NCBI GenBank assembly: GCA_037367355.1
Contig: CM074703.1
Coordinates: 2,542,001 to 2,606,000 of the forward strand
Length of the DNA: 64,000 nt
Source: Neoscytalidium dimidiatum
Taxonomy: Eukaryota; Ascomycota; Dothideomycetes; Botryosphaeriales; Botryosphaeriaceae
Direction of reading: 5' to 3'
Position numbers and translations under genes: made by a program. How positions within the stretch are numbered: position 1 is the first letter of the stretch; each line of letters begins with the position of its first letter. The notes under the pieces were generated by a model that saw only the letters and a list, made by a program, of their open reading frames with translations, was not told the origin of the DNA and did not search any database. Of this stretch, positions 12,065-17,144 are shown piece after piece.

Positions 12065-12071
12065 TATAAAA
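12065..12071 (+). promoter_or_regulatory. TATA box of micro-gene 1
   Basis: A canonical TATAAAA lies 179 bp upstream of the ATG at 12244. It is followed by a CA/pyrimidine-rich leader typical of well-expressed fungal genes. Confidence 0.6.
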
Positions 12072-12243
12072 GACATGCTTGCTCTGGCTCAACAGCTTCG
12101 TTCGCAGTAAGTCACAATCGGAACAGCATCAAACGCAGTCAGTCGCTCGCTCTTCGAGATTTACCCCACGATTTTACAGCACAAACAATATCCCCCTTCA
12201 ACCCAATCAACGCCATCCGACAATACTCCGGTTAATCTTGAAA

Positions 12244-12392
12244 ATGATGCCCGACAGCTCTGGTAACGGTAGGCTCACTCTTATCCGTCAACCTATGACC
12301 TAATAAAGTATACTCGGGAACGCAGTGTGCTGATCGAAACATCTATCGTAGGCTCCGACGGCAATTGGCCTCGTGATGGAGGCCGAAGATGA
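12244..12392 (+). CDS. WP[RK]D micro-protein 1 (21 aa, two exons)
   Basis: Exons 12244-12268 and 12352-12392. The 83-bp intron is phase 1 (donor GTAGGC, branch-like TGCTGATC, acceptor CGTAG). An earlier CAG acceptor at 12335 would give an immediate stop, so the later one is required. The product begins with two Met codons, then a short Asp/Ser/Gly/Asn-rich stretch (PDSSGNGSDGN), and ends WPRDGGRR. It has no signal peptide, membrane segment or cysteine. On its own such an ORF would be dismissed. It is called because genes at 15141 and 17011 have the same strand, exon-intron plan, intron phase, TATA spacing and Trp-Pro-basic-Asp motif. The reading frame is inferred, and no known family is recognised. 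Confidence 0.6.
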
Positions 12393-12410
12393 ACAACGCC
12401 GAAAATACAG

Positions 12411-12428
12411 CGTAACATGCTTGTTACG
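12411..12428. repeat. Perfect inverted repeat in 3' flank of micro-gene 1
   Basis: CGTAACA (12411-12417) and TGTTACG (12422-12428) are perfect inverted arms around a 4-nt loop, 18 bp after the stop codon. It could be an RNA hairpin in the 3' UTR or a protein-binding palindrome. Confidence 0.5.
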
Positions 12429-14420
12429 TATTCGAACACTAGTGAGTGGGCTTCGGATGTCCCTCGTTAGCATCATTGCTAGACCGTCTCGTTATGCTGA
12501 CTGAGTCCCAGTCTTTCTTCTGGGCTCGTTAGACCGGCTGTAGTTTACACAATGGCGTTGATCAGATGGGATTCGTGTAGGGGTGGTAGTTGTCCAGCAT
12601 TTGCCGGAGCTTCATTAATTTGCGTGGAATCCAGGATGAACGTTATTCCTTGAGTTTTTCGTTACTCGCAAAGCGTTGGCTCTGCTACGCTTGATATGTT
12701 GATGGGCTGTGCGGAGCTCCGACGGCGTAATAGATTGGATGAGCAAAGGTTCTCGAAGAAAACAAGCAACCATTCCATGAATGACCAGATGCACTTCTCT
12801 CAATTGCGGAGATCTTGCCGCTTCCTGCATAAGCAACTCGAGTGCGTGCTTGTGACTGATGATGGCCTCTGTCGACGCCGCAATAGGCCGCATCAGGTTG
12901 TCAGTCGAAGATCCCGATTAGAGGTGAAAGCGGGGACTCGGAAATCATCTTCCTCATCGGCTCCGATGACTCAGGGCTAGTGCCGAGCCTAAGCCTTACC
13001 AAACGGCGCCCCTCACGATGCCTGCTGGGGCGTTCCACTCCCGACACCATTTGCTCGATCTAACCGGAACAGGCAATCCGATGTACGTACAACCGCCGAA
13101 CGCCTCTCTTGCGCCTCGCCAATCTCTCAAGCACTCACTTTCCTTCCCGCAGGCCCATCGTTCATCAGCCGCCCCTGCGCAGCCCCAGCCTCCGCCCTTG
13201 TTCTCATTCACACACGGCGCCCTCCGGGCCCGCACAGCCGGGTGCATCGTGGCGCAGCAGAGGGCAGCGATGCGTCTCCCTCGGCGCAGGGAACCTCAGA
13301 TACGTGTGCGACGCACGCTGGGCCGCTCGAACGGCCTCCAGGATCGCCGCAGCCACTCAAGGCATGCGCAGATGCGCACAAACAGCAACGTCCACAACGA
13401 AACAAAAGGAGAAAAGAAAATAAAAAACAAGAATCCGCCAGAATGGTGCAACCAATCACCGCTGACGTGCCGCGTTGGTGGGAATCCTGGGATCCTTGCG
13501 CGGTTGCCTGGCCGCGCATAGCCGAGGGACGCTCCTGGCTGGGGGAGGGCGTGGATTAGCGGACTAAACGAACGCGCACCACCCACCTCCAGAAAATCCG
13601 TGGAAGAGTTTGAGGCAGGAAAAAGAAGGCATCCGTTTGCCCTACGCGCCCCTCCCGCCTGTCCTTTCGCGCGATTCCGCAGGTTTTCCCCTCCGAGATG
13701 ATTTGGAGAAAGCAGGGCTTCCGCTGTGAGGCGCGCAAGCTTTCACACCGGGCACACTTTCGTTCTCGCTTTATCCGCCTGAGCGTGCCATTCGTGATTG
13801 CGGCTTCTGCGAGGAAAGGGTATTCGCTTTCGTGACGTGTGCATGTGAAGACGTCTGTGTTCCCTTTCCGGGCTCTCCGGCTGCTGCGGGATCGTGATGC
13901 TTGCTGGGAGCGTTACAGATAATTGACGGGGATGGCCGGTTACCCCGTCCGCTGTGATGTCCTGTGGCGCATGTCTTGGCTTATTTTGCTGACGAAAGCA
14001 GTGCTCAAAGGACTCTTGGTCGTTGACTCCCGGCCAACGCTTCCCAGCTGGCAGAGGAGTGGGCGCGTGTGTCCCGCTTACGACGGCGTGGACTGCGTGG
14101 ACTACGTGTCCACCACTACTAAAAGGGGTGCACTGCGTCACTCATCTATTCAGGAGAGCAGCGATCAGTATGTCGACGGTGGGTTTGCATGCTCTATGGT
14201 TGTTACACTTTACACGCATACATCTCGCAGGACGTGATCGCGGCGTGAGGGCGTCATTTGCTACGGAAGAGCGCCCGGCTGCCGTTGCGGCTGTGCTAAT
14301 GCAGGGCTGACGGCGCCGCGTCCGCGCTTCGGGATGCAGCCCGACAACGTCTCTTTAACTGATTGGAGAATGGAACGGGTGTAGAAGACTTCAAGCGTGT
14401 AATATCAACCCACCATCTGT

Positions 14421-14440
14421 GGCACGGCACGGCACGGCAC
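14421..14440. repeat. GGCAC tandem repeat, four units
   Basis: Four perfect 5-bp GGCAC units lie in non-coding DNA between micro-genes 1 and 2. This is a simple repeat with no visible function. Confidence 0.8.
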
Positions 14441-14997
14441 AGTGAGCACTTGGGCTTCACTTGATCATCCCGCAGAACAGGCGTCCGGCGGGCGGATGCG
14501 GGAGCCACACACGCAGGTACTGAGCTCAGCAGGCAAAAGCCTCGGTGAGCTCGGTGGGCTCCATGGCACACCGAGCGCCCTGCACTGCCCTGACACGTCG
14601 CCGATTGCCACCCGTCTGGCGGTCTATGCGCTGGTCTCGCTCGCGCGCGTCGCATGGGCAACTGAACAGGTGAATGAGCAATAGAGAAATCCGCAGATGT
14701 GATATCACTCAGTTGCGCACCATCTCTCGTGCTTACAGGGGCTGTGGTAAGGGGCCAATGCCTTCCATTGGCCGCGATCTCGACAGTGCGTTTCAAGGCT
14801 GTCTTTCAAGATGCCGCTGTCTATCCTCTATTGGGGCAAGCTCGTGAGAGCATGCGCCCGTCATACATGCGCCTTCCCGTAGCGCTGGGCGACCGGGGCT
14901 GCCAAACACCAGGGCTGGAAGAGTTAAGGCGAGAAACAGGCAGCTACGGTGTGTGTCGGAGAACATCGTCTAAGGCGACGCGTTAACTACACCGCCA

Positions 14998-15006
14998 TAT
15001 ATTTAA
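14998..15006 (+). promoter_or_regulatory. TATA-like element of micro-gene 2
   Basis: TATATTTAA lies 143 bp upstream of the ATG at 15141, with a CT/CA-rich leader between them. The spacing is close to that in the other two micro-genes. Confidence 0.55.
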
Positions 15007-15140
15007 GTACCAATTCTGCTGTCGCTCAGCGACTAGCCATCTTGCAATCGTCTTCAAGCAGCTTCCACGTAACCATCCAACATCCTTCTCCGGACTCAGC
15101 TCCTACCTCTTGATCAACTACCTTTTCTTTTAATTCTGTC

Positions 15141-15282
15141 ATGGACGAGCCTTACGGTAGCACGGGCGCAAAATGTAATACCAAACCTTTCCCACCATGT
15201 CATTACGATCAAGTAGTGCTCACAATCCTCTTCAGCGTACCCCGGCCCTAACGGAACTTGGCCAAGGGACCCGTTGAATTAA
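15141..15282 (+). CDS. WP[RK]D micro-protein 2 (26 aa, two exons)
   Basis: Exons 15141-15174 and 15236-15282, with a 61-bp phase-1 intron (donor GTAATA, acceptor TTCAG). The product starts MDEPYGSTGAK, continues SYPGPNG after the junction and ends TWPRDPLN. An alternative donor at 15157 (GTAGCA) keeps the same frame and would shorten the N-terminal half by six residues. It is Gly/Pro/Ser-rich and has no signal peptide, cysteine or hydrophobic segment. The Trp-Pro-Arg-Asp-Pro block matches micro-gene 3 (WPKDP) more closely than micro-gene 1. A possible 3'-UTR intron follows at 15356-15407. Function unknown. Confidence 0.62.
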
Positions 15283-16851
15283 ACAAGCTCAGGCTTCCGA
15301 GTCATTCCTCCCTTGAATATTCCGAAGAGATAGCCTCTTCTTCCGACCCTTCTATGTAAGTCTGGACCCATCTCACTTTCCAAAACTGAGTTCTGATTGA
15401 ACCACAGGTTCCAATTAGCTCCTTGCTCTCCCAAGAGTCTTTCCACGTCTACGCGGAGAAATCAAGGAGAATTCAGCATTACGAGGATATGCGAGACCCT
15501 TCCTACGCATTCAATACCCTTCAGCTTATATGTATTATTATGGCGTTGGCGGATTAAGACGCATAGATACTTCACGATATCACTATCGCTTCCGGTCCTG
15601 ACTTTTCCGACCGCCATGATGGGAGGCAATTTCTTTGGCGCTAAGATGCGATGGTAGGACGAACTGCAATTCAGATGTACTCTATAGTCAATATTACCGA
15701 AAACTCAAATGGCTCAGGAAACATTCCAGTATTTCGCCGTTGTATGCCAGGTCACGATCGTCCCCTGCTGATGCGCCCGCTTCACTTCGTGATATTTCAA
15801 CGAACTCAAAAAGACAAAGTCCCAAGAACTTGAAGCCGACAGGTTCGAGGCCAAAAATCTGCCTCGAATTCCATGGCGGGACGAGCAGGAGGGCGCGGCA
15901 GATGAGGCGGTGCGCAATAGACAAGGGAAGTCGTGCGGCCTCCGTCGTCCGCACACGGCAGCGATCAGGCAAACATATTGACGACCTCAGGCTCAGCTGA
16001 CCTCCCCTCGGTCTAGGCCAATCAACTGCAAGTATTTCGCTTAAAAAGGCTTGAACTTGAGCGATCTGTGGCGCTGACGAAACGATGCAGCCCCCCCGCT
16101 TGTCAGCAGCACCACACGCGCTTCAGATGATCGCCAGAGAAAGCGCGCGCGCCGTCCGTCGCGGTGGACACCAACTTCGCGTCCCTGCATTAGTTAGACC
16201 AAAGGATCTCCAAATGAGAGATTTTCTTTTGATGCGCCCAAGCTCCACTTTTCCTTTTTTCTATCTCTTTCCGCTTCTTCTTTATCATGACTTCATTTTC
16301 CTCGGGGGCGGCCTCTGCGTCCAAACCCCTACCCCCCCCGTCCGCGCGGGATGTCATCCGAAGCCTGCCTCGCCAGCGGCTGTGCAAAAGACGGTGCTCA
16401 GCTCTCAACCCTTTCGCTCCCAGCCGCCCAATTTTCGCCACCACCACAACGCGCTCTGGCTACGTACGCGTCGCGGACTCAACAATCTGCCGAGCTGAAA
16501 AGGGGGACAAAAAAAAAAAAACTAAAAATACGGGAGGCGAATGGGAGTTTCTGGAAGGACCTCGAACCGGGCAGAGGCATGTAGGGAAAAGGAGAGCTGA
16601 CTAAAGGCCTCTCTCGTCGCAAGCGCTCCCTATGAGCGACTGAGCAGGAGGCTCACCGCCTCAAGCGCGGCTTGATAATTCCTATCGGGCTCTAGCAAGG
16701 CAGATTCCACGACGCTCCTTTTCCGGCCATACGGTGGCTCCTGTTTGCACCGCCGCGCGGCTGGCAGATGGGCCGATACGGCAATAAACGATGGATGACG
16801 AAGGCACCGCCCTGCCACGGAAACATCCTGTTGCCCTTCTCTTGGCTTTTG
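15283..16851. other. Spacer between micro-genes 2 and 3
   Basis: Holds the probable 3' UTR of micro-gene 2, including a candidate intron 15356-15407 (GTAAGT donor, TTCTGATTGA branch, CACAG acceptor). The rest is the 5' flank of micro-gene 3. A poly-A run lies at about 16509-16520. No further gene was recognised. Confidence 0.5.
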
Positions 16852-16860
16852 TTTAAATAG
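16852..16860 (+). promoter_or_regulatory. TATA-like element of micro-gene 3
   Basis: TTTAAATAG lies 159 bp upstream of the ATG at 17011, matching the spacing in the other two micro-genes. The leader just before the ATG is rich in CCAACC/ACAACA, as is common in fungal 5' UTRs. Confidence 0.5.
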
Positions 16861-17010
16861 TGTTTGCTTGCGCTCGCCCATGTGTGCAGCTTGTGTAGAT
16901 GTTCATCAGACCCCGCTAGTACCTGATCGACTGCGGACCCCCGAAACCCCCAACCAACCAATTATACTGCACGTCACTCCCGTGCACGGCTTACAACACA
17001 ACAATCAGCC

Positions 17011-17144
17011 ATGTCCGAGCAAAGCTTCCAAGGTGCGTCACGCATTGCTTGCATGAGCCTCAGGAATGCGCAGTCCGCTGACAAAATTCATCAGCTTCCA
17101 ACTCTCACGAGGAGAAGTGGCCGAAGGACCCGTACGGGAGCTGA
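17011..17144 (+). CDS. WP[RK]D micro-protein 3 (23 aa, two exons)
   Basis: Exons 17011-17032 and 17095-17144. The 62-bp intron is phase 1, with donor GTGCGT, a strong branch point CGCTGACAA and acceptor ATCAG. Exon 1 encodes MSEQSFQ; exon 2 gives SNSHEEK and ends WPKDPYGS. The product is hydrophilic and lacks any targeting signal or cysteine. The C-terminal PYGS recurs near the N-terminus of micro-protein 2 (EPYGS). Intron position, intron phase and the WP-basic-D block match the two upstream copies, supporting a tandem family. The splice signals are the best of the three. Function unknown. Confidence 0.63.

Follow-up and report, generated by a model that had tools for sequence, protein, structure and literature searches.

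A candidate family of very small genes with a shared Trp-Pro-Lys/Arg-Asp end in the ascomycete Neoscytalidium dimidiatum

In the genus Amanita, the MSDIN precursors represent basidiomycete families of tiny intracellular peptides, which are composed of conserved and hypervariable blocks and are associated with a dedicated peptidase. Another type, the fungal a-type pheromone precursors, comprises proteins of about 24 residues that lack a signal peptide and are defined by a C-terminal CaaX box. This article concerns a 64,000-nucleotide stretch of Neoscytalidium dimidiatum (Botryosphaeriaceae; assembly GCA_037367355.1, contig CM074703.1, here C9, positions 2,542,001 to 2,606,000), referred to as the window, in which three candidate spliced genes, units 1-3, are predicted to encode peptides carrying Trp-Pro-Lys/Arg-Asp (WP[KR]D) near the C-terminus.

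The block layout of the WP[KR]D peptides is similar to that of the MSDIN precursors, whereas the motifs are different and no counterpart of the peptidase was noticed here. Inspection by eye of the peptides and of the neighbouring open reading frames (ORFs) revealed none of the marks of MSDIN- and dikaritin-type precursors, namely a signal peptide with Kex2 repeats, or an MSDIN leader and a nearby prolyl oligopeptidase, no dedicated search having been run. The WP[KR]D peptides resemble the a-type pheromone precursors in being short and without a signal peptide, but lack their CaaX box, which was not found in the last four residues of any of the nine listed members (GGRR, DPLN, PYGS, GCQC, DIHH, GSRN, ANGN, AGGS and AGGQ). 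Additionally, like the small ORFs reported in a screen of 31 fungal genomes for conserved ORFs no longer than 80 residues (PMC7394265), the WP[KR]D genes represent small fungal proteins that standard annotation misses.

The reading preferred here, held with somewhat better than even confidence, is that units 1-3 are members of a lineage-specific Botryosphaeriaceae family of small, probably intracellular predicted proteins with a selected C-terminal tail; that the gene family itself is real is considered very likely. Such a family would be defined by W-P-[KR]-D at or near the C-terminus, mostly in the form W-P-[KR]-D-[AP]-x-G-[SNQ], preceded by apparently unrelated N-terminal parts that are hydrophilic or, in one case, membrane-like, and local amplification would account for its seven sites within 49.5 kb of one contig, alongside dispersed members elsewhere. 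The elements of this reading that can be demonstrated at the sequence level are the predicted gene models, the status of units 2 and 4 as paralogues with selection on their peptide, and the invariant C-terminus of a 108-residue member in four relatives.

Gene models in the window and the unit 2/unit 4 pair

The units are candidate ATG-intron-WP[KR]D gene models on the plus strand, beginning at window positions 12244, 15141 and 17011. An earlier note had described their exons, phase-1 introns and translations from the letters of the DNA, together with TATA-like boxes 140-180 bp before the ATG, and all of these hold on re-translation. The features are as follows.

12065..12071, plus strand: unit 1 TATA-like box TATAAAA, 179 nt upstream of the ATG (sequence pattern)
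12244..12268, plus strand: unit 1 exon 1, 25 nt, phase-1 end, donor GTAGGC, alternative GTAACG
12269..12351, plus strand: unit 1 intron, 83 nt, branch-like CTGAT, acceptor TAG
12352..12392, plus strand: unit 1 exon 2 including stop, C-terminus WPRDGGRR; product MMPDSSGNGSDGNWPRDGGRR
12442..12511, plus strand: unit 1 possible intron of the 3' untranslated region (UTR), GTGAGT...CAG, 70 nt (pattern only)
14999..15005, plus strand: unit 2 TATA-like box ATATTTA, 142 nt upstream of the ATG (sequence pattern)
15141..15174, plus strand: unit 2 exon 1, 34 nt
15175..15235, plus strand: unit 2 intron, 61 nt, phase 1
15236..15279, plus strand: unit 2 exon 2 including stop, SYPGPNGTWPRDPLN; product MDEPYGSTGAKSYPGPNGTWPRDPLN; clear paralogue is unit 4 at C9:2526271 (minus strand)
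15356..15407, plus strand: unit 2 possible 3' UTR intron GTAAGT...CAG, 52 nt (pattern only)
16852..16858, plus strand: unit 3 TATA-like box TTTAAAT, 159 nt upstream of the ATG (sequence pattern)
17011..17032, plus strand: unit 3 exon 1, 22 nt
17033..17094, plus strand: unit 3 intron, 62 nt, phase 1, branch-like CGCTGACA
17095..17144, plus strand: unit 3 exon 2 including stop, C-terminus WPKDPYGS; product MSEQSFQASNSHEEKWPKDPYGS

The three introns are all of the GT...AG type, the distance from W to the stop is 7-8 codons, and the products are strongly hydrophilic; in unit 1, the second donor and a second ATG are also possible. No further WP[KR]D was found on either strand of the window. The description of the units as the only gene-like objects of their surroundings agrees with a Pfam scan of 10 of the 11 ORFs of at least 120 residues between 9.7 and 17.5 kb, in which none matched at cut-off and two weak sub-threshold matches appeared (E 0.018 and 0.073).

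A genome search with unit 2 as the query returned only unit 2 itself and unit 4 (E 1.4e-4), which reads MSDEPQGSTDTDSYPGPSGQWPKDANSYLSDGTAVGSALNVQPAGKHASNGTVASRTCNGCQC across a phase-1 intron, comprises 63 residues and ends in CNGCQC. The exact pattern YPGPxGxWP occurs at two sites in the 43.76 Mb genome, unit 2 and unit 4, and a DNA similarity search with the whole unit 2 locus found only itself. The predicted product of unit 4 is clearly that of a paralogue of unit 2. Over 22 aligned codons, 15 residues are identical while eight of the nine fourfold sites differ, and the nucleotide differences are distributed 4/4/13 over the codon positions; since residues were retained while synonymous sites changed, it is the peptide rather than the DNA that is conserved. 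When the 21 changes are distributed at random, at least 15 residues are retained with P 2.7e-4, and exclusion of the motif codons leaves 12 of 18 residues identical (P 1.5e-4), both values being somewhat flattering because the pair was found through similarity. Changed synonymous sites beside retained residues in this pair constitute direct evidence of selection on the predicted protein.

In-register similarity to unit 4 continues past the TAA of unit 2, at window positions 15277-15321, where 5 of 14 residues agree; a sense codon in unit 2 may have become the TAA, or unit 4 may have lost a stop.

The surrounding locus and dispersed members

The locus consists of units 1-3 and four minus-strand sites located 16-32 kb before the window, with six of the sites lying between C9:2515000 and the window end and the seventh at 2509624. 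Besides unit 4, the minus-strand sites are u5 (C9:2525160, L072), which ends WPKDAGGSNRQSSDIHH; u6 (2523153), which gives MPSSSSSPTSNPSSQNQGGSDSQGGSNSERSTSSQGGASTIKNGPSTKDDTPRGEWPRDAAGSRN with a phase-1 intron or TPREPAGEWPRD with an alternative acceptor; and u7 (2509624), an intronless frame reading MLDSYTSTSTRGTSGISGVQTDWPRDANGN. Upstream of u5 there is a good donor, GTAAGT, but the preceding frame, inspected by eye, has no ATG. At the locus sites, an in-frame stop follows the motif within about 45 codons; in the four neighbours of the window units it lies 8, 10, 17 and 43 codons from W. Repeats connecting the units are limited to short matches, the single one that covers two motifs, 16 nt long, being shared by units 2 and 3.

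Across the genome, 376 sites encode WP[KR]D (102 AAR, 80 AGR and 194 CGN by codon class), compared with 248 for the reversed pattern (60, 53 and 135, respectively). The mean density is therefore about 0.43 sites per 50 kb, against at least seven in 49.5 kb at the locus. The 91 kb from C9:2515000 to the window end were read directly, and the positions considered comprise 100 of the 102 AAR sites, all 80 AGR sites, and 100 of the 194 CGN sites together with the 69 CGN sites followed by two G/C, so that outside directly read stretches the locus count is a lower bound. Clustering as tight as this arose in 4 of 3000 simulations with uniform random placement, which takes no account of uneven base composition.

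Frames were inspected for 108 distinct sites out of the 376. Outside the locus, one of 63 control sites had any ATG-intron-WP[KR]D model and at none (0/63) did a model reach a stop within 45 codons, the 63 including the site on contig C2 that was later counted as an intronless member. The same modelling script, applied to six locus sites, recovered units 1, 2 and 3, and for u5 produced a model of 24 residues that is doubtful; unit 4 escaped it because the donor GTACTA is outside its pattern, and u6 because the first exon, at 160 nt, exceeds its limit. A stop within 10 codons of W was observed at five of the seven locus sites versus 16 of 81 others (Fisher 0.008). These data bear directly on the explanation that WP[KR]D motifs and splice-like signals were simply selected by eye from chance occurrences. 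The motif is only four residues long, and short frames close to a stop are frequent, as the 16 of 81 non-local sites illustrate; however, the clustering, the empty control set, the paralogy of units 2 and 4, and an end kept in all four relatives of a dispersed member, described below, make chance very improbable, the least probable of the explanations weighed.

The tails WPKDPYGS, WPKDAGGS, WPRDAAGS and WPRDANGN led to the proposal of the extended pattern W-P-[KR]-D-[AP]-x-G-[SNQ]. With N, S, H and Q also admitted at the third place, it has 11 matches in the genome versus four for the reversed control, and K or R occupies that place in eight of the 11 (four at the locus, one on C5, two on C2 and one on C8). 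Candidate members account for six of the eight WP[KR]D[AP]xG sites, namely four at the locus, one on C5 and one on C2, and the extended tail [AP]-x-G-[SNQ] is present in unit 3, u5, u6, u7 and the two dispersed genes, on C5 and C2. The gene on C5 (L092) has a frame of 56 residues terminated by WPRDAGGS, with a TATA-like box 131 nt upstream of the ATG, while the C2 gene (C2:421102, L051) is a 108-residue frame ending in WPRDAGGQ, with one membrane-like stretch in its hydropathy profile. By eye, the two share a short N-terminal match, AVNDFTM / GFKDFTV. The sites C8:2263417 and C2:3706041 were considered as members and rejected, since no start is apparent and the stops follow only after 51 and 31 codons, respectively, and none of 20 further WPRD[A/P/G] sites resembled a member by eye. 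On contig C1, at 1390331 (minus strand, L044), there is an intronless frame, MAPRSGWEPAGEEGWPRDAGV, whose ATG stands in a good context and which may represent another member.

Among 29 protein-database candidates, four relatives of the C2 protein were found at E <=10, with identities of 78% in Botryosphaeria dothidea, 65% in Diplodia corticola, and 64% and 54% in two others. All four end in WPRDAGGQ, which shows that the motif is retained between species in the predicted C2 gene; the relatives would also place the genome in or near Botryosphaeriaceae. The B. dothidea and D. corticola proteins, GTA08_BOTSDO05261 and BKCO1_3300023, are uncharacterized and share this end with the C2 member, but differ from the window units in length (105 and 110 residues) and in carrying a hydrophobic stretch within their N-terminal half, with no similarity seen outside the motif. 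The predicted structure of the C2 relative P0001 has a mean predicted local distance difference test score of 53.5, with one helix (13-43) and otherwise no confident structure, and was too poor for a fold search. Pfam-A at E 10 returned no family for seven peptides (units 1-4, u6, u7 and C5) or for the five members of alignment A3 (the C2 protein and its relatives). A sequence search of the PDB with A3 gave three matches, none better than E 0.41, and searches with Rfam at gathering scores and for tRNAs gave nothing. The string WPRDAGG was not found in the literature searched, and the listed papers containing the letters WPKD, or WPRD in a fungal context, look unrelated judging by their titles.

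The members might alternatively be precursors similar to those of ribosomally synthesized and post-translationally modified peptides, with the conserved end recognised by a modifying enzyme or a protease and the variable part forming the product. Tiny hydrophilic predicted products with a conserved and a variable block, present in local copies, would suit such precursors, but the neighbouring ORFs look metabolic by eye (alcohol dehydrogenase-, glucosidase- and MFS-like), neither a signal peptide nor a Kex2-like repeat was seen by eye in the peptides, and the 108-residue member contains its membrane-like stretch. This explanation is rated as quite improbable.

Predicted transcripts and the weighing of the family

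An intron-like element lies within 200 nt after the stop in four of the eight members examined (units 1, 2, C2 and C5; u5 was outside the sample), compared with 22 of 400 random window stretches. Spliced transcripts are therefore suggested, and the RNAs of these four members may have spliced 3' UTRs. Words shared by the putative promoters, sought up to 600 nt upstream of the eight members (213 nt for C5), did not exceed those in shuffled sequences. Since the post-stop elements make longer transcripts likely, the short frames could also be regulatory upstream ORFs, or the RNAs could act as non-coding transcripts. The conservation at the protein level in units 2 and 4 and in the C2 relatives argues against such roles, as does the lack of any Pfam match in the 10 scanned ORFs around the window units; for the C2 gene, an upstream-ORF role was rejected, there being no ORF of more than 130 codons in the 1.5 kb after its stop. 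The probability of these roles is put at a similarly low level to that of modified-peptide precursors, or slightly lower.

Several observations weigh against the family as proposed. The selection test rests on one pair that was found by similarity, and unit 2 looks like a shortened unit 4, with the match continuing past its TAA. Only motif, gene form and position connect units 1 and 3 with the other members, there are upstream ATGs in the leader of unit 3, and the first exon of u5 is doubtful. The extended tail is not fitted by unit 1 (GGRR), unit 2 (PLN) or unit 4 (ANS). TATA-like patterns occur in five of the eight members, unit 4, u6 and C2 being without them. A phase-1 intron stands just before the motif in units 1-4 and u6, although its position relative to the motif in unit 4 differs from that in units 1-3; u7, C5 and C2 need no intron there, and u5 is unclear. 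No homologue of unit 4 or of the five-member alignment A2 was found in the protein database, searched with queries of 40 residues or more. In the C2 relatives, QR[KN]PKP before the motif and much of the N-terminal half are also conserved while the middle varies, so that the motif is no lone conserved island, and its presence on C2 and C5 could be convergent.

Some of these points are what would be expected if the sites were exon fragments, in which a 3' exon that encodes the motif and has a phase-1 boundary had been copied from an older gene and now stood behind chance first exons, most copies being in decay and non-functional. All five modelled upstream introns (units 1, 2, 3, 4 and u6) are phase 1, although the first three had been picked with that phase; u5 has no convincing first exon; and unit 2 seems truncated relative to unit 4. 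Against this stand the residues retained by units 2 and 4 despite their diverged fourfold sites, the recurrence of starts and short intact frames, and the retention of the motif in the C2 relatives, and fragments are regarded as an unlikely explanation, short of remote.

With the family of small proteins thus retained as the preferred reading, the earlier note's view of a duplicated family of tiny genes under peptide selection is borne out by the unit 2 paralogue, the clustering and the common end of the four C2 relatives, and its statement that no family was recognised fits the empty Pfam result. Its three units are not the whole family, which has seven locus sites and two dispersed genes (C5 and C2), and the conserved exon structure that it described does not extend to unit 4, u7, C5 or C2. 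Likewise, the absence of cysteine and the length of 21-26 residues apply to units 1-3 and fail for the family as a whole, given the cysteines and 63 residues of unit 4 and the 108 residues and hydrophobic stretch of the C2 protein.

Possible role of the shared end

A near-identical short Trp-Pro-Lys/Arg-Asp end on otherwise different predicted proteins suggests an undescribed shared protein tag. The earlier note had named a ligand, an adaptor motif or a signalling peptide as possible roles. The tail would be a short linear motif bound by a common partner, for docking, sorting or turnover, while the N-terminal part would set the location or serve as a free spacer; because different N-terminal parts carry one end, a partner reading the shared end is the best explanation. 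That the tail acts as a tag is nevertheless a tentative proposal, which would more probably fail than hold. Slightly more tentative still is the fuller version, in which W-P-[KR]-D-[AP]-x-G-[SNQ] would be a C-terminal tag that can be transferred between proteins. Duplication together with the shuffling of phase-1 exons would have placed it behind unrelated N-terminal parts, and about nine small Botryosphaeriaceae genes would feed one receptor (a binding or turnover partner).

Intron-split genes of 21-30 codons are nearly invisible to annotation, yet the paralogue pair at this locus exhibits protein-level selection. The occurrence of one end on small proteins that are otherwise unrelated indicates a single partner, which would be retrievable with a synthetic peptide, and with one shared partner the function of the whole orphan family would therefore be testable at once. 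The family would also provide a concrete case of how tiny genes arise and spread.

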